The notes under the pieces were generated by a model. It was not told the origin of the DNA. It searched no databases and saw only the letters and a program-made list of their open reading frames with translations. Positions 1-63,956 of a stretch of 64,000 nucleotides of DNA are shown one piece after another. Position 1 is the stretch's first letter. Every line of letters begins with the position of its first letter. The translations under genes and the position numbers were made by a program. Source of the stretch: Archangium violaceum (GTDB lineage Bacteria > Myxococcota > Myxococcia > Myxococcales > Myxococcaceae); contig NZ_CP069338.1 of the NCBI RefSeq assembly GCF_016859125.1, positions 3,188,501 through 3,252,500 on the forward strand, given 5' to 3'.

Positions 1-2
1 AG

Positions 3-325
3 CGCCCTGTCATCGCGTTTCACAGAGGGGGGAGTTTCCTTGAATGGTTTGTTGTCTTTGCATGCCTCCTCACCCGAGGTCACGAGCCTCTTTGGGAGAG
101 CCGCCTGGGGTGCATCACCGGAACGGACGGCGAAGGTCGACCCGTGGTGGACTTCAAAGGCAGTCCGGTGGGCTCTCGCATGGCACGCAAGACCGTGCGG
201 TTGGACGCTGAGGGACTTCAGCCGTGGTCGAGACGCGTCAGCCAGTGGAGTTCCGCTTCGAGGATGGGAGGCAGGCGGCCTCCTCCTGGGAACGCGTGTC
301 GATTGAGGGGGATGCATGCAGTTGA
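3..325 (+). pseudogene. DUF6484-like T6SS accessory remnant, frame-broken
   Basis: Two overlapping frames together read like a DUF6484 domain, a small domain found beside DUF2169 and PAAR genes. One frame gives RLGCITGTDGEGRPVVDFKG followed by ARKTVRLDAEGLQPW (to about 228). The next frame continues with VEFRFEDGRQAASSWERV to a TGA at 323-325. No single frame covers the domain, so one base appears gained or lost near 227. The left end runs off the window. The assignment rests on the family-like pattern (G-x-I, VDFxGxP, AR...LDA, FEDG) and on position directly before a DUF2169 gene. It could be a sequencing error rather than a dead gene. Confidence 0.4.
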
Positions 326-4445: not shown

Positions 4446-4813
4446 ATCCGTCCAGCCCGCTGCCGCCCAACGGGCCCCTGCCGGAGTTCGTCTCACGCCA
4501 CTTCGAGGACGCCTCCTTCCTCTGGGCGCTCCGCAACAGGGCGGTTGACTCCTCCCACTACACCTTCGCGGACCTGGAGCTGCTCGACGAGCGCGTGGAG
4601 TCTCACCTGGACGGACCCCTGTGGCTGTGCGCCGAGTCCATTGGCGAGGTGGGCGCGGCGGCGAGCCTCTGCCAGCTGGTGCGGATGGCGCAGGCCTGGC
4701 AGCGGGGCTACGCGCCGGGGCCTCGGGCCTTGTGCTTCGCGAGCAGTGTCTCGGGGGAGCGGGCGGTGGCCGTGGTGCGACGGCCGAGGCAGCCTGGGGA
4801 GGCAGGGCGATGA
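4442..4813 (+). CDS. chimeric junction ORF 1 (TIGR02270 N-term + ketosynthase C-term)
   Basis: 123 aa created by the tandem duplication. Codons 1-58 match the N-terminus of the intact TIGR02270-type gene at 11416. The rest matches the C-terminus of the ketosynthase-like gene, from LWLCAESIGEVGAA. The join lies at 4614/4616 and is in frame, with one base (4615) matching neither parent. Both ends keep ATGA overlaps with the immunity gene before and the toxin after. Its main value is probably to keep translational coupling running. A stable product is doubtful. Confidence 0.7.
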   Translation: MNPSSPLPPNGPLPEFVSRHFEDASFLWALRNRAVDSSHYTFADLELLDERVESHLDGPLWLCAESIGEVGAAASLCQLVRMAQAWQRGYAPGPRALCFASSVSGERAVAVVRRPRQPGEAGR

Positions 4814-5934: not shown

Positions 5935-5936
5935 AT

Positions 5937-6770
5937 ATGGATTCATCTTTTTACTGGGACCCGACGCGCTGGGACGACCGTGGCTATTTCGCACCCGCCG
6001 CTCCCGTAGATGACCCGACTCTGCAGCGAATTGGTGACGTGCCTTCATGGATGGAGGTGCAGGAAATCCTGGCCCGGGCAAAGGCCGGAGATTTCGGGCT
6101 GATTGAGCGGTTGCTGGATATTCATCAAGCCACGCTCAGAGCCCACCTCCTCCCTTGGGTGTGTGCTCAGGTTCTGGGCGATGCGGGAACGCCATCCTGC
6201 TTCAGGCGTATGGTTCGAGAGTTGGACGATGTCGTAGACTCCGAGTTGGGTGGCAACTTCTGTCACGCGTTTGAGGCTTGGGGCAGTTTGTCGGCGGTGC
6301 CCGCCATCGTCCAAGCATACGACCGGTACTACGGGGCGATGAAAATGGATGCGGTACCCCTCTTGCTTTCGAGCCTTCTGGAGCCGGAGTGGGGCCCGTT
6401 GAGCAAGTTCCCAAAGGAAGATGAACTGATTGCCTACGAGGACCGCGTGCTGGAACGGTACGAGGAGCTCAAGCGGAAGTTCGGGACGGACCAGGTCATC
6501 CTGCTGCACGGGGAGCGCTTCAGTGTGGTGTCGGTGGCTCGTCGCTTGCTGCGCAGCTTGAATGGTAGCGACTTCGAGCGTGCCAAGCGTCCCTTCTACC
6601 GTCGCCGCTTCGAGGCGAGCACGGGCATCGACTGCTCTCCCTTCTACAAGGACGGGGAGTTCCAGCCTCTCACCGCCGCCGCCATCCTCGAGGACTTCCT
6701 GGAGAGCCCGGAGGCGGCCCGGTACGAGGAGGGCGTGCGTTACTTCTTCGGCCACAGGATTCCGGAATGA
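5937..6770 (+). CDS. candidate immunity protein, copy 2
   Basis: 277 aa, the same length as the other three. The N-terminal half differs (starts MDSSFYWDPTRWDDRGYF; central part includes VVDSELGGNFCHAFEAWG and YDRYYGAMKMDAVP). From LEPEWGPLSKFPKEDE onward it matches copies 1 and 3. An in-frame ATG lies 18 bp upstream inside the toxin gene, but the ATG at 5937 aligns with the start of the other copies. Immunity role inferred from pairing and co-variation with toxin copy 2. Confidence 0.74.
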   Translation: MDSSFYWDPTRWDDRGYFAPAAPVDDPTLQRIGDVPSWMEVQEILARAKAGDFGLIERLLDIHQATLRAHLLPWVCAQVLGDAGTPSCFRRMVRELDDVVDSELGGNFCHAFEAWGSLSAVPAIVQAYDRYYGAMKMDAVPLLLSSLLEPEWGPLSKFPKEDELIAYEDRVLERYEELKRKFGTDQVILLHGERFSVVSVARRLLRSLNGSDFERAKRPFYRRRFEASTGIDCSPFYKDGEFQPLTAAAILEDFLESPEAARYEEGVRYFFGHRIPE

Positions 6771-7138
6771 ATCCGTCCAGGCCGCTGCCGCCCAACGGGC
6801 CCCTGCCGGCATTCGTCTCACGCCACTTCGAGGACGCCTCCTTCCTCTGGGCGCTCCGCAACAGGGCGGTTGACTCCTCCCACTACACCTTCGCGGACCT
6901 GGAGCTGCTCGACGAGCGCGTGGAGTCTCACCTGGACGGACCCCTGTGGCTGTGCGCCGAGTCCATTGGCGAGGTGGGCGCGGCGGCGAGCCTCTGCCAG
7001 CTGGTGCGGATGGCGCAGGCCTGGCAGCGGGGCTACGCGCCGGGGCCTCGGGCCTTGTGCTTCGCGAGCAGTGTCTCGGGGGAGCGGGCGGTGGCCGTGG
7101 TGCGACGGCCGAGGCAGCCTGGGGAGGCAGGGCGATGA
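6767..7138 (+). CDS. chimeric junction ORF 2
   Basis: Same 123-aa in-frame fusion as the ORF at 4442, with the same breakpoint. It carries the variants PSRPLPP and PLPAF where junction 1 and the intact gene at 11416 have PSSPLPP and PLPEF. The identical junction shows the fusion arose once and then multiplied by homologous recombination. ATGA overlaps at both ends are kept. Confidence 0.68.
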   Translation: MNPSRPLPPNGPLPAFVSRHFEDASFLWALRNRAVDSSHYTFADLELLDERVESHLDGPLWLCAESIGEVGAAASLCQLVRMAQAWQRGYAPGPRALCFASSVSGERAVAVVRRPRQPGEAGR

Positions 7139-8256
7139 GCGGCAAGGTGTACGCGAATGGCAACGAGGTGGTGAGGAAGGGCGGGGACGGGAAGGTGACG
7201 GCGGCCTTCCCCGACGTGTGTATGAGCCCTCCGCCTCCGCCAGCGGGGCCCGTGCCGGTGCCCTACGCGGACAGCTCCTCCGCGAAGGACCTGAAGGCCG
7301 GGAGCCGGACGGTGCTGATTGCCGGGAAGGAGGTGGCGCTGCAGGACGCGTCCTTCTACCAGTCGTCGCCGCTGGGCAACGAGGCGGCGACACGGAACTT
7401 CGGGGCGAGCGTGGTGACGCACACGATTACGGGGAAGACGTACTTCGCCTCGTGGTCGATGGACGTGAAGGTGGAGGGCAAGTCGGTGGTGAGGCACATG
7501 GACCTGACCACCTCGAACCACGGCAGCTACCCGGGAGCGACGCCCCCGTTCTGCAACCTCTCGGAGGCGAAGCGGGCGGAGGCGCAGGAGCTCGCTCAGC
7601 TGCGGATGGTGGAGGGGAAGTGCCCCTGCTGCGGGAAGGGCGCGGACACGTGCCCGGCGGCGTTCCGGGAGGATGACGAGGCGCTGTCCCTGGAGGAGTT
7701 CTACGGGTTGGACAAGAACCCGGCTCGGCGGGAGCAGTTCGACTTCCTCGTCTCGTACAAGACTCAGCACTGCACGTGCGATGGCCGGGTGCTCCCCGAG
7801 CCGCCTTGTGACGTGTTCCGGGCCAGCGAGCCTGGTGGTTCACGGCACGGACAGATCGAAGAGGCATGGGGCAAGGCGGTCAAGGAGTATAGGAGGGATT
7901 ACGAGAATCGGACAGGAGTGAGGCTCAAGAAAGCGTCAGAGATTCTTGACGAGCTTTTGTTGGTTACCGGCAGGGCCTCGGCATTGAAGGCGACTTCCAA
8001 GCTGTCGACGCGCGAGTTGGCGGCCCTGGAGCAACTAAAGAAGAGCGGCAAGCCCTATGACGCCCAGCTCCTTGAGGATGCGATAGAATATAGGCGGTTG
8101 AGTGCTAAGTCGAAGGGATTGGCACGGATCAACCACTTAGTACCCAAAGAGGCATCTGGTTGCCCGACCAACCCTGACAACCTTCAGCCGCAGCAGACCT
8201 TGTGTAGGGAATGCCAGGCAATCGACGATTTCTTTACTTTTCACTGGCAGGGATAA
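7135..8256 (+). CDS. DUF4150 PAAR-like toxin, copy 3, HNH-like C-terminus
   Basis: 373 aa, the shortest copy. Residues 1-249 match copies 1 and 2. The tail begins KEYRRDYENRTG and ends in NHLVPKEASGCPTNPDNLQP with LCRECQ, then HWQG. The last 130 bp are identical to copy 4. The start is in the ATGA overlap with chimeric ORF 2. The TAA stop lies 5 bp before the immunity ATG, so coupling is looser than in copy 1. Effector role as for copy 1. Confidence 0.87.
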   Translation: MSGKVYANGNEVVRKGGDGKVTAAFPDVCMSPPPPPAGPVPVPYADSSSAKDLKAGSRTVLIAGKEVALQDASFYQSSPLGNEAATRNFGASVVTHTITGKTYFASWSMDVKVEGKSVVRHMDLTTSNHGSYPGATPPFCNLSEAKRAEAQELAQLRMVEGKCPCCGKGADTCPAAFREDDEALSLEEFYGLDKNPARREQFDFLVSYKTQHCTCDGRVLPEPPCDVFRASEPGGSRHGQIEEAWGKAVKEYRRDYENRTGVRLKKASEILDELLLVTGRASALKATSKLSTRELAALEQLKKSGKPYDAQLLEDAIEYRRLSAKSKGLARINHLVPKEASGCPTNPDNLQPQQTLCRECQAIDDFFTFHWQG

Positions 8257-8261
8257 TAGAA

Positions 8262-9095
8262 ATGCCTTCACGCTACTATTGGGTTCCAACGCATTGGGAC
8301 GATCGCGGATATTTTGCTCCCGCTGCTCCCTCGAATGATCCGCTTCTTGAAAAGACTGGCGACGTCCCCTTCTGGATGGAGACTCAGGAAATCCTGGCCC
8401 AGGCGAAAGCTGGGGGCTTTGATCGGCTTGAACGATTGCTGGATATTCATCAAGCCACGACGAGAACTCACCTGCTGCCCTGGGTGTGTGCTCAGATCCT
8501 GGGAGATGCCGGGACGCCAACCTGCTTCAGTCGTATGATTCGCGAATTGGATGACTCCGTGGATCCCGATATGGCTGGTGACTTCTGCCATGCGTTCGAA
8601 GCCTGGGGGAGCTTGTCGTCCATCCCCGCCATCGTTCAGGCCTATGACCGAGGCTTCGGGGCTGATCTGATGAATTCGGTGCCCCTCATCCTTTCCTCCA
8701 TCCTGGAGCCGGAGTGGGGCCCGTTGAGCAAGTTCCCAAAGGAAGATGAACTGATTGCCTACGAGGACCGCGTGCTGGAACGGTACGAGGAGCTCAAGCG
8801 GAAGTTCGGGACGGACCAGGTCATCCTGCTGCACGGGGAGCGCTTCAGTGTGGTGTCGGTGGCTCGTCGCTTGCTGCGCAGCTTGAATGGTAGCGACTTC
8901 GAGCGTGCCAAGCGTCCCTTCTACCGTCGCCGCTTCGAGGCGAGCACGGGCATCGACTGCTCTCCCTTCTACAAGGACGGGGAGTTCCAGCCTCTCACCG
9001 CCGCCGCCATCCTCGAGGACTTCCTGGAGAGCCCGGAGGCGGCCCGGTACGAGGAGGGCGTGCGTTACTTCTTCGGCCACAGGATTCCGGAATGA
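8262..9095 (+). CDS. candidate immunity protein, copy 3
   Basis: 277 aa. Starts MPSRYYWVPTHWDDRGYF. An in-frame ATG 51 bp upstream lies inside the toxin gene and is not supported by the other copies. The central helices (YDRGFGADLMNSVP) are closest to copy 1. From LEPEWGPLSKF onward it is the shared constant half. Role inferred as for the other copies. Its ATGA stop overlaps the third junction ORF. Confidence 0.74.
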   Translation: MPSRYYWVPTHWDDRGYFAPAAPSNDPLLEKTGDVPFWMETQEILAQAKAGGFDRLERLLDIHQATTRTHLLPWVCAQILGDAGTPTCFSRMIRELDDSVDPDMAGDFCHAFEAWGSLSSIPAIVQAYDRGFGADLMNSVPLILSSILEPEWGPLSKFPKEDELIAYEDRVLERYEELKRKFGTDQVILLHGERFSVVSVARRLLRSLNGSDFERAKRPFYRRRFEASTGIDCSPFYKDGEFQPLTAAAILEDFLESPEAARYEEGVRYFFGHRIPE

Positions 9096-9462
9096 ATCCG
9101 TCCAGGCCGCTGCCGCCCAACGGGCCCCTGCCGGCATTCGTCTCACGCCACTTCGAGGACGCCTCCTTCCTCTGGGCGCTCCGCAACAGGGCGGTTGACT
9201 CCTCCCACTACACCTTCGCGGACCTGGAGCTGCTCGACGAGCGCGTGGAGTCTCACCTGGACGGACCCCTGTGGCTGTGCGCCGAGTCCATTGGCGAGGT
9301 GGGCGCGGCGGCGAGCCTCTGCCAGCTGGTGCGGATGGCGCAGGCCTGGCAGCGGGGCTACGCGCCGGGGCCTCGGGCCTTGTGCTTCGCGAGCAGTGTC
9401 TCGGGGAGCGGGCGGTGGCCGTGGTGCGACGGCCGAGGCAGCCTGGGGAGGCAGGGCGATGA
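9092..9462 (+). pseudogene. chimeric junction ORF 3, frameshifted
   Basis: Same fusion as junction ORFs 1 and 2, but one G is missing in the run at 9403-9406 (four Gs against five). The frame shifts just after VSG, so the reading frame passes the toxin-4 ATG at 9459 and runs on to a stop at 10000. The ATGA coupling seen at the other three toxin starts is therefore lost here. This could be a true deletion or a base-calling error in a homopolymer. Confidence 0.75.
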
Positions 9463-10583
9463 GCGGCAAGGTGTACGCGAATGGCAACGAGGTGGTGAGG
9501 AAGGGCGGGGACGGGAAGGTGACGGCGGCCTTCCCCGACGTGTGTATGAGCCCTCCGCCTCCGCCAGCGGGGCCCGTGCCGGTGCCCTACGCGGACAGCT
9601 CCTCCGCGAAGGACTTGAAGGCCGGGAGCCGGACGGTGCTGATTGCCGGGAAGGAGGTGGCGCTGCAGGACGCGTCCTTCTACCAGTCGTCGCCGCTGGG
9701 CAACGAGGCGGCGACACGGAACTTCGGGGCGAGCGTGGTGACGCACACGATTACGGGGAAGACGTACTTCGCCTCGTGGTCGATGGACGTGAAGGTGGAG
9801 GGCAAGTCGGTGGTGAGGCACATGGACCTGACCACCTCGAACCACGGCAGCTACCCGGGAGCGACGCCCCCGTTCTGCAACCTCTCGGAGGCGAAGCGGG
9901 CGGAGGCGCAGGAGCTCGCTCAGCTGCGGATGGTGGAGGGGAAGTGCCCCTGCTGCGGGAAGGGCGCGGACACGTGCCCGGCGGCGTTCCGGGAGGATGA
10001 CGAGGCGCTGTCCCTGGAGGAGTTCTACGGGTTGGACAAGAACCCGGCTCGGCGGGAGCAGTTCGACTTCCTCGTCTCGTACAAGACTCAGCACTGCACG
10101 TGCGATGGCCGGGTGCTCCCCGAGCCGCCTTGTGACGTGTTCCGGGCCAGCGAGCCTGGTGGTTCACGGCACAGGGACATCGAAAACATATGGAATGAAG
10201 AGGTCGCGGAGTACCGGAGAGCCTACATGCGCAGGTCGGGAGTGAGGCTCAAAGAATCCCTGGAGATACTCGAAGAGCTCCTGCAAGCCACCGGCAGGCC
10301 ACAGGCGTTGAGGGCAACCGCCAAGATGTCGAACCGCGAGTTGGCTGCCTTGGAGCAACTCAAGAAGTCCGGGCAACCCTATGATAACAAGCTATTCGAT
10401 GATGCCAAGGAGTTCAGGCGACTGAGCGCAAAGGCGAAGGGGCTGGCACGGATCAACCACTTAGTACCCAAAGAGGCATCTGGTTGCCCGACCAACCCTG
10501 ACAACCTTCAGCCGCAGCAGACCTTGTGTAGGGAATGCCAGGCAATCGACGATTTCTTTACTTTTCACTGGCAAGGGAAATAG
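9459..10583 (+). CDS. DUF4150 PAAR-like toxin, copy 4, HNH-like C-terminus
   Basis: 374 aa. The DUF4150 and Cys-rich parts match the other copies, but divergence begins about 35 bp earlier, at GGSRHRDIENIWNEEV where copies 1-3 read GGSRHGQIEEAWGKAV. The tail ends in the same motif as copy 3 (NHLVPKEASGCPTNPDNLQP). The ATG has its own GGGAGGCAGGGCG upstream, so it can start without coupling despite the frameshift in the preceding ORF. The immunity ATG follows 2 bp after the stop. Confidence 0.87.
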   Translation: MSGKVYANGNEVVRKGGDGKVTAAFPDVCMSPPPPPAGPVPVPYADSSSAKDLKAGSRTVLIAGKEVALQDASFYQSSPLGNEAATRNFGASVVTHTITGKTYFASWSMDVKVEGKSVVRHMDLTTSNHGSYPGATPPFCNLSEAKRAEAQELAQLRMVEGKCPCCGKGADTCPAAFREDDEALSLEEFYGLDKNPARREQFDFLVSYKTQHCTCDGRVLPEPPCDVFRASEPGGSRHRDIENIWNEEVAEYRRAYMRRSGVRLKESLEILEELLQATGRPQALRATAKMSNRELAALEQLKKSGQPYDNKLFDDAKEFRRLSAKAKGLARINHLVPKEASGCPTNPDNLQPQQTLCRECQAIDDFFTFHWQGK

Positions 10584-43544: not shown

Positions 43545-44018
43545 TCACCCTCCCGCGCACCGTTTACCGTTGGCGCTCCATGGCCACCACCCATCCCTCA
43601 AGCATTTCTCCTTGCAGGCCATGCAGTGGCTCTGGCCGTACTGAATGTTCGGCTTGAGACCGGCTCTCTTGACACACCGCTCGTAATGCTGCTGGCACCG
43701 CTCCTTTCGGAATTCACTCTCTACCTCCTCTTCCTCCTCGGACACGCGGATGAGTGGCGGTGGCCTGAGCGGAGGCTCCGACTCCGTCGAAGGGGGCTTC
43801 GTGTTCGGAGATGGTTGTTGTGCTGGAGGTGTCGCACCACACTTCGCGTACTGGCCGGGGTTCATCTTGAGGCAACAGGTGACGGTGCTGTCCGTCTGGT
43901 TGCACTCGCCGTCCACGATCACCGCGTCCGCACCCGCACATCCCGAAGTCAACGCCATGGCAATGACAATCGCCAGGGAAGGGCCGGACGGACTGGCGTA
44001 AAGCCTCGAGAAGCGCAT
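43545..44018 (-). CDS. small Cys-rich lipoprotein
   Basis: 157 aa from ATG 44018, with AGGGGGGG just upstream. Signal peptide with lipobox TSGC. Then CNQTDSTVTCCLKMNPGQYA, a Pro-rich linker, an acidic run (SEEEEEVESE) and a C-terminal domain with paired Cys (CQQHYERCVKRAG, YGQSHCMACKEKCLRDGWWP, ending GKRCAGG). Proteins of this design occur in several myxobacteria, perhaps DUF6310-like, with no known function. Eight or more Cys suggest disulfides outside the cytoplasm. Confidence 0.6.
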   Translation of the reverse strand: MRFSRLYASPSGPSLAIVIAMALTSGCAGADAVIVDGECNQTDSTVTCCLKMNPGQYAKCGATPPAQQPSPNTKPPSTESEPPLRPPPLIRVSEEEEEVESEFRKERCQQHYERCVKRAGLKPNIQYGQSHCMACKEKCLRDGWWPWSANGKRCAGG

Positions 44019-44124
44019 GCACCCCCCCCTGGTGGTTGCCATGCGATCTTCAGAAAACCCGCCGCAATCTTCAATCCAGGTAGGGTGTTGAGCCCTCGCG
44101 GCGTGGGGTTGTCAACACGTTCGG

Positions 44125-45249
44125 TCAGGTGGGCAGCGGGGCGGTGAGCGTCGCGAACATCAGCTTCAGCATCGCGTCCCGTGCCACCAGCAGCCGCGTC
44201 GAGCCCACCACCCACTTCACCGTCCGCCGCGACACCTTCACCGGTTGCCGCTCCAGCACCGCCTCGTTGCCGTGCAGCTTGCGCAGCGTCATCACCGCGA
44301 GGAACAGCGGCCAGAGGCAGAACAGCCGGATGCCTTCCTCTTCCCGGGGCAATGCCATCACATACTCGAAGGCCTTGCGCAGCTCCCGGTGCGCCACCGC
44401 CACCAGCTTGTTGTAGGCCTTCATCGCCTCGTGCCGGTTGCCGGGCTCCAGCAGCACCTCGGGTGTCAGCCCGTGCTCGGCCAGCAGGGTCCTCGGCAGC
44501 CAGCAGCTCCCGCGCTCCAGGTCCTCGCGCACGTCCTTGAGGATGTTCGTCAGCTGCAAGGCATTGCCAAACGCCACCGCCCGCGGCTCCAGCACCGCCG
44601 CCCGCTGCGCGATCGTCGGCGAGTACCACTGGAACAGCCGCGTCAGCATCTCCCCCACCGTCCCCGCCACGTAGTAGCAGTACTCGAGCGTCTCCTCGAG
44701 GCTCGCCAGCCCCAGGCCTCCTGCCGAGGCGCGGCCCTTGTCCCCCATCCTCCCCATCCCCTCCGCCATCACCGCCACGCACGCCGCCACGTGCTCGCGC
44801 ACCGGCGCCGCGTGCACCGCCAGCGCCTCCAGCACCCGCGGCGTCCCCTCCACCAACCGCACCTCCGCCTCCGGCGCCTGCGCGCGCAGCACCCGCGCCG
44901 CCTCCTCCGTGAAGCGCCGCGCGTCCGCCTCCCAGCCCTCGGGCAACGTGCTCAGCCGCGCCAGCTCCGCCAGCAGCGCCGCGCTCGTCGGGCCGTGCGC
45001 CTCGTCCTCCAGCGTGTCGGCGATCCGACACAGCAGGTAGGCCACCGTCACCGCCGTGTCCAACGGGCGCGGCAGCACCGGGATGTTCAACGCGAAGGTC
45101 CGCGAGACGGCGGGCAACACCTCGCGGCAGAAGACGATGGCGGTGGGCTCGCTCTCCAAGGGCGGCCCTTTCCGAGGTCCCTTGCTCCTCGTCTTCACGG
45201 CCCCGTGCTCCCAGGTGGAACGCAGTCCATCGCTCTCCGCGCGTGTCAT
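44125..45249 (-). CDS. phytoene/squalene synthase family protein
   Basis: 374 aa from ATG 45249; the frame is open to 45306. It carries both Asp-rich motifs of the trans-isoprenyl head-to-head synthases: CRIADTLEDE and LTNILKDVREDLERGSCWLP, with YCYYVAGTVGEMLTRLF between them. The enzyme should join two prenyl diphosphates (geranylgeranyl for phytoene or farnesyl for squalene). No crtI, crtE or hopanoid genes lie beside it, so the product cannot be settled; myxobacteria make both carotenoids and squalene-derived sterols. Confidence 0.85.
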   Translation of the reverse strand: MTRAESDGLRSTWEHGAVKTRSKGPRKGPPLESEPTAIVFCREVLPAVSRTFALNIPVLPRPLDTAVTVAYLLCRIADTLEDEAHGPTSAALLAELARLSTLPEGWEADARRFTEEAARVLRAQAPEAEVRLVEGTPRVLEALAVHAAPVREHVAACVAVMAEGMGRMGDKGRASAGGLGLASLEETLEYCYYVAGTVGEMLTRLFQWYSPTIAQRAAVLEPRAVAFGNALQLTNILKDVREDLERGSCWLPRTLLAEHGLTPEVLLEPGNRHEAMKAYNKLVAVAHRELRKAFEYVMALPREEEGIRLFCLWPLFLAVMTLRKLHGNEAVLERQPVKVSRRTVKWVVGSTRLLVARDAMLKLMFATLTAPLPT

Positions 45250-45306
45250 CACGAAGCGCGGGATTACCCCAGCCAGCCCCCAGGTGCACGGAATCCCTTC
45301 ATCCAC

Positions 45307-45783
45307 TCACCGCCCGGGTGTCGCTTTCTGCTCCGTCTCCCCCTCCGGAGCCGGCGAACGTTCCCTCGGGGACTGCTCCACGGGTTCGAGGGCGTTCACC
45401 ACATAACCGTCCCGCTCGAGGGTGAAGCTCGCCCGCACCTCCTGTCCCGGTCTCAGCGCCTGCTGGCGGTCCGGGGTGAAGCGCGTGTCCCGCGTCAGCT
45501 CGAGAGGGAAGACGGCCCCCGCATGCCGCAACCAGAGCTGGTCTCCCTCCACCCGCACCACCTCGCCGGAGAGCTCACCGCGCCGCGTCTCGTGGGTGCC
45601 CGCCTGGCCCGAGCCACCCGTGCCCGCCTCCTGCTCCGGGACGGGCGTATCGTCCGTGTGCGGCGTCTGGCGGAACTCCTCGATGTTGTCCGGGAGATCG
45701 TCCGGCCGCTGCCGCACCTCCTGCGCGCCCGCCGGAGCCACCAGCCCGAGCACGGCCAGCCACGCCAATGCCTTGCATGCCAT
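45307..45783 (-). CDS. secreted hypothetical protein
   Basis: 158 aa. Signal peptide ending in PAGAQE. An acidic Thr/Pro-rich middle leads into a small beta domain (GELSGEVVRVEGDQLWLRHA, DTRFTPDRQQALRPGQEVRA) like those of DUF5666-type proteins, then a charged tail. Periplasmic or secreted. Function unknown. Probably in one transcript with the gene at 45811 and perhaps with the synthase that follows. Confidence 0.6.
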   Translation of the reverse strand: MACKALAWLAVLGLVAPAGAQEVRQRPDDLPDNIEEFRQTPHTDDTPVPEQEAGTGGSGQAGTHETRRGELSGEVVRVEGDQLWLRHAGAVFPLELTRDTRFTPDRQQALRPGQEVRASFTLERDGYVVNALEPVEQSPRERSPAPEGETEQKATPGR

Positions 45784-45810
45784 GGGAGCCTCCTATCGCT
45801 GCGTTTCCCT

Positions 45811-46482
45811 CTATGGAGATGGGGTTCCCGCTCCACCCATGCCCGGCGTCTCCCCCGTGGGGGGGGCCGGAGAGAGGGCCTCGTCCGAAAGCAGGAGGGC
45901 CAGGAGGGCACCTTCCTCGGCGGCCCCGAGTTGCATGAGCTCCTCGGGAATGCGCAGCGTCACCGGCGTGGGCGGGCCCCGGGTGACGTCACACGTCCGC
46001 CAGCCCGAGTACCGGTTGCCCGCCATGGGCAGCCTGTAGCTGCAGCCTCCCACCGAGCCGAGAATTCCCGTGGGCGTGAGCGTCAGCTCGGCCGTGTCCC
46101 CGCCGAACCAGCCCAGCACCCTCAACCCGGGTCGAGGCGTGAGCGCCACCGCCGTGAGGTCCACGGACTCGCCCGCCGCCCGGCCGGTGATGTCGCCATC
46201 CTCGCTCCATTTCAATTCCACGGGCTGGCCCCTCAGCGTCCCGCTCAGGCCGTTCTCAACCCGGCGGAGCTGGAGCCCGGCGCCGGAGATGGACTCGGGC
46301 TCGACGCGGATTTCGAGACTGCGCTCGCCTACCTGGAGCAGGAGGGGCTCTCGCACGGAGACGGTGACCTCGGCCGCCGCGGGTACGCCGATGCCCAGCA
46401 CGAGCACCACCGCGAGCGGAGCGAGGACACCGCGCCTCGGAAACGCGGGCTGTGTCACGCAACACCTGCCTTTCGTCGTCAC
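45811..46482 (-). CDS. secreted hypothetical beta-rich protein
   Basis: 223 aa. Signal peptide (VLAPLAVVLVLGIGVPAAA). The mature part is beta-rich with turn motifs (LELRRVENGLSGTLRGQPVE-like pattern, GGDTAELTLTPTGILGSVGG) and ends in a Gly/Pro tail. Four or fewer Cys. No family recognised. First gene of a small minus-strand cluster; the MITE-like element lies just upstream of its start and could carry or alter its promoter. Confidence 0.55.
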   Translation of the reverse strand: MTTKGRCCVTQPAFPRRGVLAPLAVVLVLGIGVPAAAEVTVSVREPLLLQVGERSLEIRVEPESISGAGLQLRRVENGLSGTLRGQPVELKWSEDGDITGRAAGESVDLTAVALTPRPGLRVLGWFGGDTAELTLTPTGILGSVGGCSYRLPMAGNRYSGWRTCDVTRGPPTPVTLRIPEELMQLGAAEEGALLALLLSDEALSPAPPTGETPGMGGAGTPSP

Positions 46483-46490
46483 ACCTCAAA

Positions 46491-46601
46491 CTAGTACTAC
46501 AGCGGGACTTCGGTCCCGCTCTCCTGCATGTTGTGCTTCCTTGCTGGGTAGGTAACCACAACTTCCAGGGAGCAGAGGCCAAAGTCCGACTGTAGTACTA
46601 G
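46491..46601. mobile_element. MITE-like element with terminal inverted repeats
   Basis: 111 bp bounded by CTAGTACTACAG and its exact reverse complement CTGTAGTACTAG; the pairing extends to about 20 bp with two mismatches. No coding capacity. An inner hairpin at 46502-46519 (GCGGGAC-TTCG-GTCCCGC) has a perfect 7-bp stem and a TTCG tetraloop. TA at each end would fit IS630/Tc1-type insertion. No second copy was noticed in this window. Confidence 0.5.
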
Positions 46602-46674
46602 GTGCGCCGACGCGAGACAGGCACGAGTGCTCCCCCGAGTGCTCCACGGGCGGGCCCACGGCCCGCGGAGGCCC

Positions 46675-47009
46675 TCACGGCGCCGCGCGCATCGGATTCT
46701 CGTGGTGATTGCCCCGGCCCACCTCGTCCGTGCCCACCAGCGTGGCCGAGACGGCCCCGGGTCCACTGGGAGTGAACAGCACCCTCACCAGGGGCTCCTC
46801 CACCCCGAAGGGCCCCGCGGCACGTTCCACGTCATCCGGACCGGAGAACGGCCCGAGCTCACCACCCGGAGCTCGCCCTGGCGCGAAACACCCACGTACG
46901 TGGCCGGAAAGGCCACTGCCTCTTGCGAGAAGCGCACCTGGCTGGAGGAGCCCACCAGCGGCGGCCGCTCCTCACGGCAGGCCCCCAGCGGGCCCGTGAG
47001 CAGCAGCAC
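46675..47009 (-). pseudogene. small lipoprotein with ASH-like domain, frameshifted
   Basis: From GTG 47009 (upstream start possible) the frame reads LLLTGPLGAC, a lipobox, then VRFSQEAVAFPATYVGVSRQ and LRVVSSGRSPVRMTW, typical of ASH/choice-of-anchor beta-sandwich domains. The frame then breaks near 46825 in a G/C run. The next frame continues family-like (FGVEEPLVRVLFTPSGPG, SATLVGTDEVGRGNHH) to a TGA at 46675. One base gained or lost explains this; either decay or sequencing error. Confidence 0.5.
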
Positions 47010-47195
47010 CGTCAGCCGCCACCTCCCTCCCTTTATTCTGGTTTCGCGCGTCCTGCCTGTTCCCCTCGCCCTGGCCTATAGGCCTCGCCCCTCGAACCAC
47101 CCTGGCGTTTCTACGGTCTTGCAGGAGGGAAGGCCTTCCAAACCCTTGAAAGCACGGGGCTCTGTCCCGGTACGATTCTGGCAAAGCCCGGAATC

Positions 47196-47483
47196 ATGGC
47201 TTCCATCGAATCCGCTATTTCAGAGCAATTGGCGCAGGCCTTCACCGTCTACATCCCGCAGGCGCTCCAATCGCAGATGGACCGGCTGGCCGCGGACACC
47301 CGCCATACCCTGCTGGGCGAGCTCTTCCGCCTCGCCGTCCAGGCCTGGCACGAGCGCTGCCTCCTGCCCCGCCACGGCCCCGTCACCCTCGAGTTCCTGC
47401 TGGCCGGCTGCGACGTGGGCATCGAGCTGGATGCCCCGGCCGCCCGCCTCACGCTCGTCTCGCTGGTGCGTGCCCGGCACTGA
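47196..47483 (+). CDS. small conserved-looking protein
   Basis: 95 aa, no signal peptide. Helical first half (AISEQLAQAFTVYIPQALQS, LGELFRLAVQAWHE), then VTLEFLLAGCDVGIELDAPA. Starts at ATG 47196 after a GCCCGGAATC stretch with no strong Shine-Dalgarno. Family not recognised. Lies directly before the DnaA-box cluster. Confidence 0.55.
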   Translation: MASIESAISEQLAQAFTVYIPQALQSQMDRLAADTRHTLLGELFRLAVQAWHERCLLPRHGPVTLEFLLAGCDVGIELDAPAARLTLVSLVRARH

Positions 47484-47497
47484 GCCGCCCGGGGGCC

Positions 47498-47747
47498 TTA
47501 TCCACAGTTCCACCTTGTCCCCAGGCCCCGCTGTTTCTTCACTGGAGTAATAGAGTATTAGATCGATCAGTGATGACAGCAGGGGGTGTGGGCTTGTGGA
47601 AAAGTCCGCAACTGCTCGGAATCACTGGTGAATCCCAGGTATGCTACATGTGGGGAAGTTGGCGCTAATCCCCGGCCATCCACAGGGGTTGGATCATCCC
47701 CGGGGTTGTCCACAGAGGCACCCGGCTCCATCCACAGGCCGTCCACA
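47498..47747. promoter_or_regulatory. cluster of DnaA-box-like sites, possible origin
   Basis: Six DnaA-like 9-mers in 250 bp. Exact consensus forms are TTATCCACA at 47498-47506 and TTGTCCACA at 47706-47714; TTTTCCACA lies on the minus strand at 47595-47603. CCATCCACA occurs at 47676 and 47728, and CCGTCCACA at 47739. A less GC-rich stretch (about 47526-47575) lies between the first two sites. The set resembles an oriC or a DnaA-regulated promoter for the kinase gene that follows. No dnaA, dnaN or parAB gene is in the window, so origin status is unproved. Confidence 0.5.
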
Positions 47748-47773
47748 GGGGCTGTGGGCTATGGTCCCGGCCC

Positions 47774-49537
47774 ATGTCCGCGAATCCAACCGACCTCGAC
47801 CTGCACTGGGGCGAGCGCATCGGACGGTATCAGGTGCTCGCACAGCTGTCGGTGGGAGGCATGGCCGAGCTGTTCCTCGGCTTCACCTCGGGGCCGGGCG
47901 GCTTCCGTAAATATGTCGCCCTCAAACGGATTCTTCCGGACGCGCGCGGCGACGAGCAGTTCGAGCGGATGTTCCTGGATGAAGCCCGCATCACCGCGGC
48001 GCTCAACCACCCGAACATCGGGCAGGTGTTCGAGCTGGGCCGGGACGCCGAGGGCCTGTTCCTGGCGATGGAGTTCATCGCGGGGCAGAACCTCAACCAG
48101 ATCGCCAGCGTGTGCCGGCGCGGGGGCCTGGCGCAGCCGCCGGGCCTGAGCCTGTCGGTGGTGCGCGACGTGTGCCTGGCGCTGCACTACGCGCACACCT
48201 TCACCACGCCGGGCGGCAAGCCCTCCCCCGTCATCCACCGCGACGTGTCCCAGAAGAACGTGATGGTGACGTACGACGGGGAGGTGAAGCTGCTGGACTT
48301 CGGCATCGCCAAGGCACGCGATGGCATGGTGCGCACCCAGGTGGGCATGGTGAAGGGCACCACCGGGTACATGTCGCCGGAGCAGGTGCGGGGCGAGCCG
48401 CTGGATGGGCGAAGTGATCTGTTCGCCGCCGGGGTGATGCTCCACGAGATGCTCACCGGCGAGCGCCTCTTCTCCGCGGAGACCGAGCGCCAGGAGATGG
48501 AGATGATCCTGTCGGCGCCCATCCCGGCGCTGACGGCGAAGGCGCCGGGGCTGCCGCCGGAGGTGTCGGCGGTGGTGCTCAAGGCGCTGGCGCGCAATCG
48601 GGAGGAGCGCTACCCGAACGGCCGGGAGATGGCGCGGGCCATCGAAGCGGCGGCCGGGAAGCTGCTCTTCGACTCCGAGCGGCGCTCGGCCTTCATGCGC
48701 GAGCACTTCCAGGAGCGCATGGAGGTGACGCGCCGGCTGCTGGAGAGCGCGGACGCGGTGAAGGAGCCTGTGTCGTCGGGCATGGGGACGGAGTCGGTTC
48801 CGGCGGCGAAGCCAGCCGCGAGGCCGCGGGTCAGGGCGGAGGGGCTGCGGCCGGCGCAGGGAGCGCGGCGGGGGGCCGAGGCGGACACGGCGGAGACTCC
48901 AGCAGGGGCCGCGGTGGTCACCACGGGGCGGGTGGTGACGCGGGAGGAGCGGTTCGCGGCGGCTGCCCCGAAGGAGACCGCGTCCACGGCACCGCGGGCG
49001 AGCGGGAGCGGAGGGTCGGGGAAGTTCTGGGGAGTGATCGCCGTGCTGTTGGTGCTGGGGGGAGGCCTGGGCTTCGGCGCGGTGAAGCTGATCGCGGCGA
49101 TCAAGGAGCAGGAGGCCAATGGGACGCCCATTCCGGTGGGAGACATCTCTCCGATGACCCCCATCGAGCGTCCCGGGCAGAAGAAGAACCCGGAGCCGGA
49201 GGTGGGCACCACCGCGGAGGCGAAGACGCAGCCGCCGGCGCGGGGCGGCGAGGCGGCCCCCGTGAACAAGGAGGCCCCGGCGAACAAGGACGGCGAGCCC
49301 GCGCGTAATGTGAAGAGGGGCTCGCTGACGCTGGTCGTCCTGCCGGAGGCCGAGGTGTTCCTGAATGGGCGCTCGCTGGGCAAGACGCCGCTGATCAAGG
49401 TGCCGGTGCCGGTGGGCACGCATCGGCTGCTCATCAAGGGTGCGGATGGCAAGCGGCGCATGCTGTCGGTGCCCATCGAGACGGGTAGGACGGCGAAGTT
49501 CAAGCTCGCGCTGACGGACATCCCCGAGAAGAGCTGA
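47774..49537 (+). CDS. membrane Ser/Thr protein kinase with PEGA domain
   Basis: 587 aa. Complete Hanks-type kinase: Gly loop SVGGMAELFLG, Lys51 in VALKRIL, HRD near 155 with VSQKN, DFG in LLDFGIAK and SPE in GYMSPEQ. A linker follows from about 320, then one membrane helix at about 417-437 (VIAVLLVLGGGLGFGAVKL), a Lys/Pro/Glu-rich stretch and a C-terminal PEGA domain (GSLTLVVLPEAEVFLNGRSL). Very similar in its kinase part to the gene at 15541, so the two are probably paralogues. Substrates unknown. Confidence 0.92.
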   Translation: MSANPTDLDLHWGERIGRYQVLAQLSVGGMAELFLGFTSGPGGFRKYVALKRILPDARGDEQFERMFLDEARITAALNHPNIGQVFELGRDAEGLFLAMEFIAGQNLNQIASVCRRGGLAQPPGLSLSVVRDVCLALHYAHTFTTPGGKPSPVIHRDVSQKNVMVTYDGEVKLLDFGIAKARDGMVRTQVGMVKGTTGYMSPEQVRGEPLDGRSDLFAAGVMLHEMLTGERLFSAETERQEMEMILSAPIPALTAKAPGLPPEVSAVVLKALARNREERYPNGREMARAIEAAAGKLLFDSERRSAFMREHFQERMEVTRRLLESADAVKEPVSSGMGTESVPAAKPAARPRVRAEGLRPAQGARRGAEADTAETPAGAAVVTTGRVVTREERFAAAAPKETASTAPRASGSGGSGKFWGVIAVLLVLGGGLGFGAVKLIAAIKEQEANGTPIPVGDISPMTPIERPGQKKNPEPEVGTTAEAKTQPPARGGEAAPVNKEAPANKDGEPARNVKRGSLTLVVLPEAEVFLNGRSLGKTPLIKVPVPVGTHRLLIKGADGKRRMLSVPIETGRTAKFKLALTDIPEKS

Positions 49538-49672
49538 GAGGGGACGAAGGATCGGGGCGGCCTTCCCCGCTCCTTGCTTCACACCGGGCTGACTACTGCT
49601 CGAAGCCGGAGCCGGTGTTGGTGTCCGGCGTGGCAGAAGCCACGTGACTCATGCTCCGCCTCAGGAGCTGAC

Positions 49673-49721
49673 GGGACGGCGGCGCGGCGTGTTGCCTGTA
49701 CGGCAGACGCGGCCCCGTCCC
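49673..49721. terminator. long hairpin between convergent genes
   Basis: GGGACGG pairs with CCGTCCC as the base of a 49-nt imperfect hairpin whose inner part pairs GCGT-TGCC with GGCA-ACGC. It sits between the kinase stop at 49537 and the protease stop at 49763 and could end transcription from both sides. No U-run. Confidence 0.45.
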
Positions 49722-49762
49722 GCCTACCAGGGAACGGCTCCCGCGAGGAGCCACCTCCTCCT

Positions 49763-51412
49763 TCAGTTCAGCTTGAAGAGCTGGTTGGCGTCACCATTGC
49801 AGGGCCACTGGATGAGGCGGGCACCAGCGGCCGTGCTGCCATCATGGACATCCAGGCACATCCCACTGTGCCGGGCGATGAACCGGTAGAAGCCGTTACC
49901 CTGGGAGTCCAGGTAGAACTGCTGGTTGGTGTCACCATTGCAGGGCCACTGGATGATCGAGGCCCCCTCCACGGTGCTTCCGTCATGGACATCCAGGCAC
50001 ATCCCGCTGAGGTTCGAGACGACCTGGTAGTAGCCATTGCCAGCGTAGGCGTAGCGGAAGCTCTGGTTGGTGTCGCCGTTGCAATGCCACTGGATGATCG
50101 AGGCTCCCTCCGCCGTGCTCGCGTCATGGACATCCATGCACCTGGCGCTGTGCGCCGCGATGAACGTGCTGGGGCGGAGCGAGTACGGCCCGGGATTCGA
50201 GTTGAGCAACCGGTTCGGCGAGCCAATGCCCGCCCCGACTACCTTGTTGGGTGTGGAGTAACCGATGAGCGCATTGGCGACGACGGCGGGGGTCGCGGAG
50301 GGATTGAACTGGAGGTAGATGGCGGCCGCTCCCGCCACGTGAGGCGTGGCCATCGACGTGCCGCTGAGCACCGTGGATGCGGTGTCACTGGCGTTCGACG
50401 CGGAGGTGATACTCGAGCCGGGCGCGAAGAGGTCGACACAGGTGCCGATGTTCGAGAAGGACGACCGGTTGTCATTGCTGTCCGTGGAGCCCACGGTCAG
50501 CGCCTCGCCCACTCGCGCCGGGCTCTTCGTGCAGGCATCCCTACCATAATCGTTGCCTGCGGCGACGGCGTAGGTGACACCCGCGGCGATGGATCGGCGC
50601 ACGGCATCGTCCAGGGCCTGGTTGGCAGCCCCGCCAAGGCTCATGGTCGCCACGGCCGGCTTCACATGGTTCGCCGTGACCCAGTCGATGCCGGCGATGA
50701 CGGTGGACGAGAAGCCGGAGCCCGCGCAGTTGAGCACGCGCACGGCGTGCAGGCTCACCCCCTTGGCGACGCCCCAGGTCGCGCCGCCGACCGTTCCGGC
50801 CACGTGCGTGCCATGCCCGCTGCAGTCGTTGTGGTCGTTGATGCCGTCACCGTTGTCATCGACACCGGTGTAGTTGGCCGTTGCCCGGCCGCCGAAGTCG
50901 GAGTGGGTCGTCCGGATGCCGGTGTCGATGATGTAGGCATGCACCCCGGACCCGTTCAGATGGTAGGTGTAGTTGCCGTCCAGGGGCTGATCCGGCTGAT
51001 CGATGCGATCCAGGCCCCAGGTGGACCCCGTCTGCGTGGCGCCCACGTGCACCACCCCATCCTCCTCCACGTAACGCACCGCCGGGTTCGCGGCGAGCGC
51101 CTGGGCCTCGGCCTCGGTCATCCGCACCGCGAAGCCACGAAGCGCATGCTCGTACGTGTGAAGGATTCGCCCACCGTGGCGGCCAACGAGCTCGCGCGCC
51201 ACCTCCGGAACGCGCCTTCTGACGGCGCTCGGCGTGGAATCCTCGAGGACGACGATGTATTGGTTCGCCACCGGCTCCTTGGATCGGAGCAGCTTCGAGG
51301 AGACGGCGAGCGAACTGCTGTCCCCGGCCGGTTCGGCCTGAAGCGGATCCGCCACGCCACAGGATGCGAGGACACAGAAAGTCAGCGGCAATGCTGCCTG
51401 GGTGATGCGCAT
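49763..51412 (-). CDS. secreted subtilisin-like protease with ricin-type lectin domain
   Basis: 549 aa. Signal peptide with a possible lipobox (LASC). An inhibitor I9 propeptide follows ([20 protein letters not shown]), then an S8 domain with complete triad: Asp in [13 protein letters not shown], His in GHGTHVAGT and Ser in [12 protein letters not shown]; it is proteinase K-like. The C-terminal 140 residues are a ricin B-type lectin of three repeats ([38 protein letters not shown]) that bind sugars. The repeats are also visible as near-identical DNA. A secreted protease suited to degrading prey or protein in carbohydrate matrices. Confidence 0.93.
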
Positions 51413-51623
51413 GATGGAATTGCCTCGTATTTGATAGCTGACTGAGCAGGACGCCCAGCCCCCCCGACTGCTTCATGCAGAAGGCGCGCGCACACTACCC
51501 ATCCACGAAGGAGACGCTTCCAATCAGGCGCCAATCATTTACACACCAGCGTCAATCCAATCATATGCTGAAATTTTCAATCTTCAGCGAACCGGGGAGC
51601 ACGGATGCGTTGGAGGAAATCCC

Positions 51624-52823
51624 TTACAAAGTACGCATCGCCCGTGCGAGGAGGGGCAGGAGTACCAGGGCGAGCACGTTGAGCCCGACCGCCCAGACGA
51701 CCAGCGCCTTCCACAGGCGTGGCTCCACGCGCAGGGTGCCGAGCGCCACCACCATCCACAGCACTGGCAGGAAATCCAGGCTGAAGCGCTGCGCATTCAC
51801 TTGCACCCAACCATTGTTGTAGTAGTGCAGCATGTGGAGGAGCGCGAGCAGCACGGTGCACCAGGCGCCTACCCGCAGCGGGTGCTGTCCTCGCGCCGCC
51901 AACGCCACGAAGATGAAGGGACTGGCGAAGGTGAGCGACGTCCCCATGCCATCCATTCCAATCGGTGCCAACTGGCGCGGGCCGCCGAAGAGGAAGTGCG
52001 GCCCCTCCAGGAACATGTGGAAGAAGTTGAAGGGGACGTACGCGGGGTGGAACAACCCGTAGCGCGCCACGCGCCTGGCCAGGAAGTCGCTCAGGGGCAT
52101 GCCCGCGTACCCCGTATCGAATGGACTGCCGAAGCGCGCCGCGTTGAGCGCCAGGTACACCAGGGCACATCCTCCCGCGACCACGAGCGCCCCCCCCGTC
52201 TGCAGCACCTGCCGCCGTCTGCCGGTCTCCGCATGACGCAGCCACACGACCAGGGCGACGAAGGGCACCAGATAGACACATAACTGGCGCGACAGGAAGG
52301 CCAGCCCCGCCCACAGCCCCGCCCACGCCCCGCGTCCCCGAAGCGCCTCCTCCAGGGCGAGCAAAGAGCAGGACACCGCCACCACGTGCGCCAGGAACCA
52401 CACGGCCTCGCTCTGGACCACGCAGGACCAGAAGGCCGTGCCTCCGAGCAGCGCGCCCACCAGCCATGGCCGAGACTCGGAGGGGATGTCCAGCCGCCGC
52501 AGCACCCGCCACGCCGTCCATGCCGCCAGGACCGCCAACCCCAGCGCCAGGAGACGGTAGGGCGCACGCTCTGGCCCCGTGAGCGCCACCAGTGGCAGCA
52601 CCACCACCGAGGGAAAAGGCGGGAAGGCCACATAGTAGCGGCCCCCGTACATACTCAGGTCCTCCGCGGGCCCCGGGACATCCAGCCGCCCCTCCAGCCA
52701 CGCCTGGGCCTGCAACCCATACAGGTTGGGCCCGTCATAGTGCGCGCGCCGGAAGCTCAGACCGATCGCGAGAAGGGCCATCAGGAGAAGAAGCGTCTTG
52801 CGGTGACCGGCGGCGAGGGGCAT
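51624..52823 (-). CDS. polytopic membrane protein, GT39/ArnT-like glycosyltransferase
   Basis: 399 aa from ATG 52823 (the frame opens at 52925). About ten hydrophobic helices. The first extracytoplasmic loop contains YDGPNLYGLQAQAWLEGRLD and YGGRYYVAFPPFPSVVVLPL, the pattern of polyprenyl-phosphate-sugar mannosyltransferase-like GT-C enzymes, with an Asp in the first loop. Likely transfers a sugar from a lipid carrier, substrate unknown. No cell-envelope sugar genes are adjacent. Confidence 0.65.
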   Translation of the reverse strand: MPLAAGHRKTLLLLMALLAIGLSFRRAHYDGPNLYGLQAQAWLEGRLDVPGPAEDLSMYGGRYYVAFPPFPSVVVLPLVALTGPERAPYRLLALGLAVLAAWTAWRVLRRLDIPSESRPWLVGALLGGTAFWSCVVQSEAVWFLAHVVAVSCSLLALEEALRGRGAWAGLWAGLAFLSRQLCVYLVPFVALVVWLRHAETGRRRQVLQTGGALVVAGGCALVYLALNAARFGSPFDTGYAGMPLSDFLARRVARYGLFHPAYVPFNFFHMFLEGPHFLFGGPRQLAPIGMDGMGTSLTFASPFIFVALAARGQHPLRVGAWCTVLLALLHMLHYYNNGWVQVNAQRFSLDFLPVLWMVVALGTLRVEPRLWKALVVWAVGLNVLALVLLPLLARAMRTL

Positions 52824-62683: not shown

Positions 62684-63956
62684 CTGCATCCTCCCTACGT
62701 GGCGCTGGCCCCCCTGGGGCATCACGCCGGAGCGAGACGACTTCTAAGATAGTGTCGCGGATTTCCTCGAGCCGCGCCACCACGTCATTGGCGAGGAAGC
62801 GGAGCACGAGGTAGCCGTGCCGTTGGAGTCCCAGATCCTTGCGCCGGTCGCGGCGGTAGGCCTCGGGATCCTGGAAGTGGTAGTAGCCGTCGACCTCGAT
62901 GGCGACGCGCAGCCGGCGACAGAGGAAGTCCACCTCCACGGGCCGGTTGTTGATGCGGAACTCGGCGCGCTCGTTGTTCTCGAAGAGGCCCTGGGTGGCG
63001 GGGAGGGAGTCGAGCAGTGCGAGCAGGAAGCGCTCGGCGGAGCTGCGCGCCCGGTCCGCGGCCTCGGGCTGTTTGGAGGCGGCTTCCAGCTCACGGGCTG
63101 CCTCCCCGTAACGGGTCAGCACCTCGTCCGTGACGCCATCGGCGGCCAGCCGGGCCAGCGAGCCGGAGAGTGTCTCAGTGGATTTGACTCCGAGTGTCTC
63201 CAGCCGCCGCTTCAGCTCCTCGGCGGAGGGCGTGTCGAGCTCCAGCAGTCCTTCACGCACCAGGGCCATGGCCTGGCTCTCGCCCCCGTGCAGGTAGGCG
63301 TCGACTGTGGGCCGATCCACCTGGAGGGCCACGATGAGCGAGGGCACGGCATCACAGAGCCTGGCCGCCACGCGTGCGGCGCTCGTCAGCCAGGCGGCGC
63401 CGGAACCGGAGAGCATGAGGGCCGGGGCTTCTCCCGATGGGACGAGCGCATGCAGTGCCACGAGCGCGCGGAGGGGATCTCCCTCACAGGCGGCGAGTAT
63501 CACGTCAGGGAGGAGCCCGGACTTGTGGACAACTTGTGGAGGTTGGAGCAGGCACCTGCAGGTGGCGGAGACATCTCCTCCGGGAATGGAGGGGAAGAGC
63601 TCCTGGAGGAGCACGTCGCGCTCATGCTCTGTCCTTCCCTCGAGCAGGGAGCGAGACTCGCCGGGAGCGAGGCCCGCGGCGGCACCGAGGTAGTCCGCCG
63701 CATCCGCCTGGAGGTTCCTGACACGGGAGAGTGTCTCCATCCAATCGCGGACCACCGTGGCCTCGTGGGTGCCAGGAGAGACACTGAGGGGCTGGTGGCG
63801 CGAGTCGAGCCAGCGGCGCCAGAGGGACATGGCACTGCCGGGCGGGCCGGCGAACACGGTGAGCTTGGGGATGCCCTGCTCGCGCCGGCGCTGATGCCGT
63901 TCCAGTTCTTGGAGGACCGAGGCATCGCTCCGGATGTGGGATCTGGAAGAGGGCAC
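62670..63956 (-). CDS. DUF559 endonuclease-domain protein with degenerate P-loop
   Basis: 428 aa from GTG 63956; an upstream stop in frame excludes a longer form. Near residue 34 it has VFAGPPGSAMSLW, a Walker-A-like loop lacking the Lys (GPPGSAMS), so ATP hydrolysis is doubtful. The C-terminal 110 residues are a DUF559/Vsr-like PD-(D/E)xK nuclease: RINNRPVEVDFLCRRLRVAI, EVDGYYHFQDPEAYRRDRRK, LGLQRHGYLVLRFLANDVV. The catalytic Asp, Glu and following acidic/basic residues all appear present. First gene of the three-gene operon; likely the effector nuclease. Confidence 0.78.
   Translation of the reverse strand: MPSSRSHIRSDASVLQELERHQRRREQGIPKLTVFAGPPGSAMSLWRRWLDSRHQPLSVSPGTHEATVVRDWMETLSRVRNLQADAADYLGAAAGLAPGESRSLLEGRTEHERDVLLQELFPSIPGGDVSATCRCLLQPPQVVHKSGLLPDVILAACEGDPLRALVALHALVPSGEAPALMLSGSGAAWLTSAARVAARLCDAVPSLIVALQVDRPTVDAYLHGGESQAMALVREGLLELDTPSAEELKRRLETLGVKSTETLSGSLARLAADGVTDEVLTRYGEAARELEAASKQPEAADRARSSAERFLLALLDSLPATQGLFENNERAEFRINNRPVEVDFLCRRLRVAIEVDGYYHFQDPEAYRRDRRKDLGLQRHGYLVLRFLANDVVARLEEIRDTILEVVSLRRDAPGGPAPRREDADGGA

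Follow-up and report, generated by a model that had tools for sequence, protein, structure and literature searches.

In Escherichia coli, oriC lies approximately 44 kb from dnaA, beside mnmG/gidA, and datA, a cluster of DnaA boxes, serves as a DnaA-titration site. The origin of Bacillus subtilis is bipartite, with two DnaA-box clusters around dnaA (PMC5295017), and its oriC in the dnaA-dnaN gap carries the basal unwinding system (BUS), a module in which a DnaA box is followed by a spacer (length peak 10 to 13 bp) and by DnaA-trios with a conserved middle adenine; a minimum of three trios was applied in the work describing this module (PMC8287927). For Myxococcus, a BLAST comparison with DoriC placed the oriC of M. 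hansupus at 8,613,829-8,614,077, with dnaA at 8,646,592-8,645,240, and the DoriC entries are ORI92210206 for M. xanthus DK1622 and ORI94030396 for M. fulvus (PMC4765838). We found no experimentally mapped origin for Myxococcus or Archangium in the literature searched, most subscription journals being outside the search. No initiation site is mapped in the available portions of two papers on M. xanthus (PMC3778016, PMC3899335), one of which places parAB approximately 35 kb from oriC; in M. xanthus cell biology, as these sources present it, "ori" is set by ParB/parS or by prediction.

Here, we analyzed a window of 64,000 nucleotides from the chromosome of Archangium violaceum (12,677,854 bp, complete, single contig), in which an earlier note had pointed to a cluster of DnaA boxes as either the chromosomal origin, a DnaA-titration site, or a control region for the adjacent kinase gene. 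We refer to this cluster as element A (genome coordinates 3,235,998-3,236,250; Table 1) and to a second cluster, which is located outside the window and 184 kb from element A in the gidA-gidB gap (genome coordinates 3,419,754-3,419,846), as cluster B.

Element A has a box, a GC-rich spacer, and AT-rich DNA in common with the BUS; its triplets resemble 3'-GAT/GAC trios, its 12-bp spacer falls inside the 10 to 13 bp peak, and it likewise lies in the order dnaA-A-dnaN (PMC8287927). It differs from the BUS in that its trios are imperfect, with two consecutive in the window's copy, and in its distance of tens of kilobases from dnaA. Similar to the bipartite origin, conserved B and A flank dnaA, in the order B-dnaA-A in 20 of 20 complete genomes (PMC5295017); however, A and B are approximately 41 to 252 kb apart here, with tens of genes between them. 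The likeness to datA and to the B. subtilis clusters (PMC5295017) is that of a non-coding box cluster near, yet apart from, the origin defined by skew, whereas element A, unlike these, combines AT-rich DNA with a trio frame. As in E. coli, the putative origin does not adjoin dnaA; the gidA neighborhood of E. coli oriC is shared by cluster B, whereas element A is found beside a Ser/Thr kinase gene. Finally, element A is the same element as the Myxococcus oriC of DoriC/Ori-Finder (PMC4765838), which is a prediction only. Compared to that prediction, the Archangium copy is 75 kb from dnaA and skew does not support it as the main origin, and cluster B is absent from the account in the available part of PMC4765838.

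Box content and origin-like anatomy of element A

Table 1. Features of element A and its surroundings, in window positions
Feature	Position	Strand	Remark
95-aa ORF, without Pfam match	47196-47483	+	small ORF upstream of element A
Element A, non-coding cluster of DnaA boxes that includes an AT-rich stretch	47498-47747		95-aa ORF on one side, Ser/Thr kinase gene on the other
DnaA box TTATCCACA, perfect consensus	47498-47506	+	word scan
DnaA-box-like TTGTCCCCA, 2 mismatches	47515-47523	+	retained in Archangium/Cystobacter-type loci
Lowest-GC 40 bp (35% GC), candidate DNA-unwinding element	47532-47571		composition
DnaA-trio-like triplets	47565-47582	-	3'-GAC GAC AGT AGT GAC TAG-5', reading away from box
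GC-rich spacer, 12 bp, trios to box	47583-47594		12 bp in 30/30 loci
DnaA box TTTTCCACA, adjoins spacer	47595-47603	-	TTGTCCCCA at that place in most Myxococcus-type loci
DnaA-box-like TTCCCCACA, 2 mismatches	47649-47657	-	within invariant core CTACATGTGGG
DnaA-box-like CCATCCACA, 2 mismatches	47676-47684	+	word scan
DnaA box TTGTCCACA	47706-47714	+	word scan
Tandem TCCACAGGCCGTCCACA, two boxes 11 bp apart	47728-47747	+	kept in 30/30 aligned loci
Ser/Thr protein kinase with PEGA domain	47774-49537	+	constant neighbor downstream of element A

The non-coding gap that holds element A is 290 bp long. Within 239 bp, we counted three strong boxes and four boxes with two mismatches, seven in all, including the first box of the tandem (9-mer at 47728 on the plus strand, two mismatches); an extra TCCACA ending at 47747 gives the 9-mer CCGTCCACA, with three mismatches. 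The earlier note was thus right about the three strong boxes, one of them on the other strand, and one short on the near matches, of which there are four at two mismatches rather than three. Its less GC-rich stretch is borne out by a GC content of 48 to 62% over positions 47500-47699, compared to 67.7% for the window.

That such clustering is improbable by chance, as the same note had held, agrees with three separate counts. In 15 simulated copies of the window (order-2 Markov), the maximum was four such words per approximately 290 bp, compared to the seven observed. The word TTNTCCACA occurs 73 times in 12.68 Mb, compared to 75 times for a reversed control word, so the genome is without general enrichment of the word, and element A is the only site in the genome with three TTNTCCACA inside 300 bp (span 217 bp); the expected number of such triples, by our own arithmetic from the genome-wide word density, is approximately 6e-5. 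The tandem YCCACA-N5-TCCACA (11 bp) is found seven times genome-wide, compared to three times for the control, and five of the seven fall within the 184 kb from A to B. Taken with the Markov copies and the genome word count, the tandem count rules out chance clustering of boxes at element A. The genome holds no second copy of the element, the search returning short chance matches only, and no Rfam RNA reached the gathering score within 44000-52000. Upstream, at 46491-46601, we noticed by eye a perfect 12-bp inverted repeat (CTAGTACTACAG / CTGTAGTACTAG) around approximately 87 bp, possibly a small mobile element.

The arrangement of the parts is constant. In all 30 aligned loci, the minus-strand box is followed by the 12-bp GC-rich spacer, triplets in trio register, and the lowest-GC 40 bp, which has 30 to 40% GC and sits at a constant distance from the invariant core. 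At least three consecutive trios are present in 19 of the 30 loci, compared to two in the window's copy, which falls below the minimum applied in PMC8287927, and the middle base is A in the first trio of 30/30 loci, the second of 28/30, and the third of 21/30. Scored by middle A, the trio frame reaches 4.43 of 6, compared to 1.13 and 0.60 in the remaining two; a control of 2000 shuffles gave 2.06, and none exceeded 2.63. Because the 30 loci are mutually related, the trio frame is to be read as one conserved pattern and not as 30 independent cases. Three features by which an oriC is recognized are found at element A: a DnaA-box cluster in non-coding DNA, an AT-rich stretch beside the boxes (by composition, 35% GC in a 67.7% GC window), and a single copy conserved among relatives, with one strong model match in 65 of 96 genomes of the family.

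Conservation, an earlier prediction, and position relative to dnaA

At the DNA level, element A was matched in 63 of the 96 family genomes, representing 10 of 26 genera. We aligned 30 loci out of these 63 genomes and built a sequence-only model (R1) from 25 of the 30. Wherever the model found a strong match within the family, it found one copy (E <= 7e-15); the other 31 family genomes gave no strong match, and the 51 genomes outside the family gave no match at all (147 searched in all). Box order and spacing are constant in 30/30 aligned loci. Within the genus, identity is 84.4% over 288 bp, compared to 77.7% for the neighboring kinase gene at its four-fold sites, a level of conservation that exceeds neutral only moderately. 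Between genera, the core of the element can be aligned and the flanks cannot. A myxobacterial kinase with element A (127 bits) also turned up in the sequence BNCN01000009.1, titled "Comamonas sp. KCTC 72670"; it groups with Myxococcus genomes, as G066 in our set and L200 among the loci, and the organism name looks wrong.

The match to element A in one family genome, G059, covers 8,613,832-8,614,076, which is within 3 bp of the oriC predicted for M. hansupus, and dnaA is approximately 32 kb off. From the coordinates of oriC and dnaA, G059 would be M. hansupus. Judged by this match, element A is the oriC that DoriC predicts for M. xanthus and M. fulvus. Because it coincides with the M. hansupus prediction, the idea of an origin at this element is already on record (PMC4765838).

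In the window's genome, dnaA (AAA+ domain, minus strand) is located at 3,311,192-3,311,680, 75 kb from element A; the earlier note's description of a cluster without dnaA is accurate locally. Of the 11 complete family genomes tested, 9 have element A in the interval from dnaA to dnaN. The two exceptions, both of genus g5, carry dnaN in opposite orientation on the other arm, as an inversion around the origin region would leave it. In one outgroup genus, four complete genomes (G108, G109, G110, and G113) contain one to four TTDTCCACA words per genome, and in each of the four, one TTTTCCACA falls in the dnaA-dnaN interval; two further outgroup genomes (G119 and G143) have none in that interval. 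A smaller relative, G044, has a weaker A-like match (E 2.9e-8) approximately 3.3 kb 3' of dnaA in the same orientation. Weak A-like matches just 5' of dnaA in G010, G046, G087, and G091 (E 5e-5 to 4e-3) owe their score mainly to the boxes. Judged by its position, element A looks like a descendant of a dnaA-dnaN origin. It is probably the ancestral origin of the family, since it equals the DoriC-based Myxococcus prediction and occupies the slot of the outgroup's box between dnaA and dnaN. Two draft genomes, G081 and G118, each carry two full DnaA-domain genes, reflecting contamination or a second initiator.

Strand skew and cluster B

We measured skew in 13 of the 20 complete genomes in which dnaA and gidB were placed; long flanks were included for G000 (the window's genome), G002, G062, and G028. 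Raw cumulative skew of G000 was computed for the region 3.05-3.51 Mb. The raw skew is shaped by how genes are oriented around gidA-gidB and around A; we therefore did not rely on the uncorrected values alone and used a corrected skew, calculated at four-fold degenerate sites with the strand of each gene entered as a factor. Genes for this calculation were called by a simple GC3 rule and cover 64 to 76% of the DNA. A gene-level bootstrap gives narrower intervals for the Myxococcus-type genomes (g19), and we relied instead on resampling by orthologue cluster.

The raw skew minimum of G000 is at 3,416,417; B is approximately 3 kb away and A 180 kb, and A is a local minimum only. Across the 13 genomes, the raw minimum lies <0.75 kb from A in eight, including all seven Myxococcus-type genomes, and 0.8 to 5.1 kb from B in five, which are both Archangium-type genomes, two of the three Corallococcus-like genomes (g5), and the single g6 genome, G034. 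The corrected skew of g5 and of G034 is too weak to tell A from B. In G002, the plus-strand genes of the segment between B and A have a corrected skew of +0.122, and its minus-strand genes have one of -0.173. The arm beyond A has segment-like values (+0.137 and -0.170), and the arm beyond B has the opposite ones (-0.136 and +0.208). The corrected skew of this segment in G000 agrees with G002. For the two genomes together, M(+)-M(-) is 0.22 in the A-B segment, compared to 0.28 in the outer arms, the pattern of a segment copied from the B side; resampled by orthologue cluster, they fit B as the origin and reject A (95% interval of dM+dO, 0.34 to 0.65). For the seven Myxococcus-type genomes, B is rejected as the sole origin (dM-dO, -0.283 to -0.024), and A as the origin is a borderline case (dM+dO, -0.001 to 0.268). 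The corrected curve of G062 has a level floor that begins approximately 20 kb outside B and reaches A, so Myxococcus alone is weak evidence.

The strand record says that over evolutionary time most replication in the window's genome began near B. A GC-skew minimum at this locus was one check proposed in the earlier note, and here its expectation fails: the vertex lies at B, 184 kb off, in both the raw and the strand-corrected skew. Of the features by which an oriC is recognized, a strand-bias vertex at the site is thus missing from element A in this genome, and for that reason we class the element only as oriC-type and not as this genome's chromosomal origin. We also asked whether the Archangium skew arose because the A-B segment had been inserted or inverted. 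Such a cause is ruled out by the shared orthologues, which keep their side and strand between G002 and G062 (13/13) and themselves carry the skew, which still differs between the two. Apart from this region, positions 1-10000 of the window have a strong positive GC skew (0.10 to 0.14), with negative skew on both sides, possibly a long gene or a recent insertion.

Cluster B lies at the skew vertex of the window's genome. In 20/20 aligned loci, it consists of a tandem pair of boxes 11 bp apart together with TTATCCACA, or TTGTCCACA in L084, which overlaps the start of gidB; in the window's genome, the gap is at 3,419,754-3,419,838 and gidB at 3,419,839. No AT-rich stretch is present at cluster B in the 20 aligned loci, where the lowest 40-bp GC is 0.42 to 0.60. 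Trio-like triplets could be seen there by eye in some genera, and not in Archangium. Isolated tandem pairs between A and B occur at window positions 63524-63540 (minus strand) and at genome positions 3,268,421 and 3,386,011. The flanks of two of these align to the other Archangium-type genome, and the pair itself is present there at one.

Competing explanations and significance

Taken as a whole, the best explanation is that element A is an oriC-type initiation site, ancestral in the family and secondary in this genome, to which we assign a probability of roughly 58%. From its sequence, we infer DnaA binding, which is very probable, as well as unwinding and initiation. DnaA would occupy boxes of either strand. 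Starting at the box at 47595, it would extend past the 12-bp GC-rich spacer to the trio-like triplets and open the AT-rich DNA at 47532-47571. The ancestral origin A would have moved off from dnaA as the chromosome grew; in the simplest account that covers both the oriC-type anatomy and the strand record, Archangium would have retained A while B assumed most, or all, of the initiation. Because the strand record places most fork starts at B, element A is perhaps a secondary or reserve site in this genome. The proposal of an origin in the earlier note is therefore upheld by the anatomy, the single-copy conservation in the family, the identity with the M. hansupus oriC, and the dnaA-dnaN position, and contradicted by the skew of this genome, which points to B.

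The main rival to the origin reading is DnaA titration, in which B is the only working origin here and A, as a titration or regulatory cluster, binds DnaA without firing, so that A, B, and the tandem pairs together set the level of free DnaA. We regard this as possible but somewhat unlikely. It fits with both Archangium-type genomes having their skew vertex at B, with the five of seven genomic tandem box pairs that fall within A to B, with the conservation of B in all 20 complete genomes, and with the finding that DnaA-box clusters outside oriC restrain initiation in B. subtilis (PMC5295017). However, the AT-rich stretch and the trio frame have been kept at A although a titration site needs neither, B is the weaker of the two in oriC anatomy, and the Myxococcus skew argues against B as the sole origin.

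A split origin is a more doubtful explanation. Here, an ancestral bipartite origin around dnaA would have been pulled apart by chromosome growth in the Myxococcaceae, with A and B both firing in proportions that depend on the lineage. Its two DnaA-dependent initiation sites, about which we are equally doubtful, would be 41 to 252 kb from each other: A, with the unwinding element, on the dnaN side, and B between gidA and gidB. If the corrected skew of the A-B segment is read as a ratio under this explanation, the arithmetic would put the share of A at roughly 10% of initiation in Archangium and at about one half in Myxococcus, the intervals being wide.

It is very unlikely that A is the main origin in all members, including this genome, and that the Archangium skew vertex at B is a historical or compositional accident. 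The DoriC-based prediction, the anatomy, and the position of A would fit such a uniform origin, but both gene strands of the A-B segment have right-arm values in G002, these values hold among the orthologues shared with G000, and inversion is no explanation when strand is kept in 13/13 orthologues between G002 and G062.

Element A abuts the start of the PEGA-domain kinase in 5/5 genomes inspected, and small ORFs similar to the one upstream in the window also precede it in G002 and G028 (103 and 105 aa). Among kinase-relative loci, 18 of 46, a number that includes paralogues, have element A directly upstream, always on the same strand. Since all genera inspected have the element next to the kinase, it is possible that, as the earlier note had suggested, the boxes are a DnaA-controlled promoter region coupling the kinase level to the replication cycle; this explanation is without positive support and the least probable of those considered, given that no sigma-70-like site was found by consensus in 47100-47900 (a search for the sigma-70 type only), that the gap between element A and the kinase varies in length and sequence, and that eight boxes, an AT-rich stretch, and a trio frame are more than a promoter requires. 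No terminator was found by consensus in 47100-47900 either. Beyond the kinase, at 49763-51412 on the minus strand, is a gene for a subtilisin-like protease with three C-terminal ricin-type lectin repeats.

For genome annotation, origin calls in Archangium based on dnaA or on box clusters disagree by 75 to 184 kb with those based on skew. If A is the origin, the adjacent kinase and the DnaA boxes would be direct handles on the control of replication in a developmental bacterium whose chromosomes are very large. If the origin is B in Archangium and A in Myxococcus, then origins can move or double within one family, with both sites persisting, and origin relocation would become testable.
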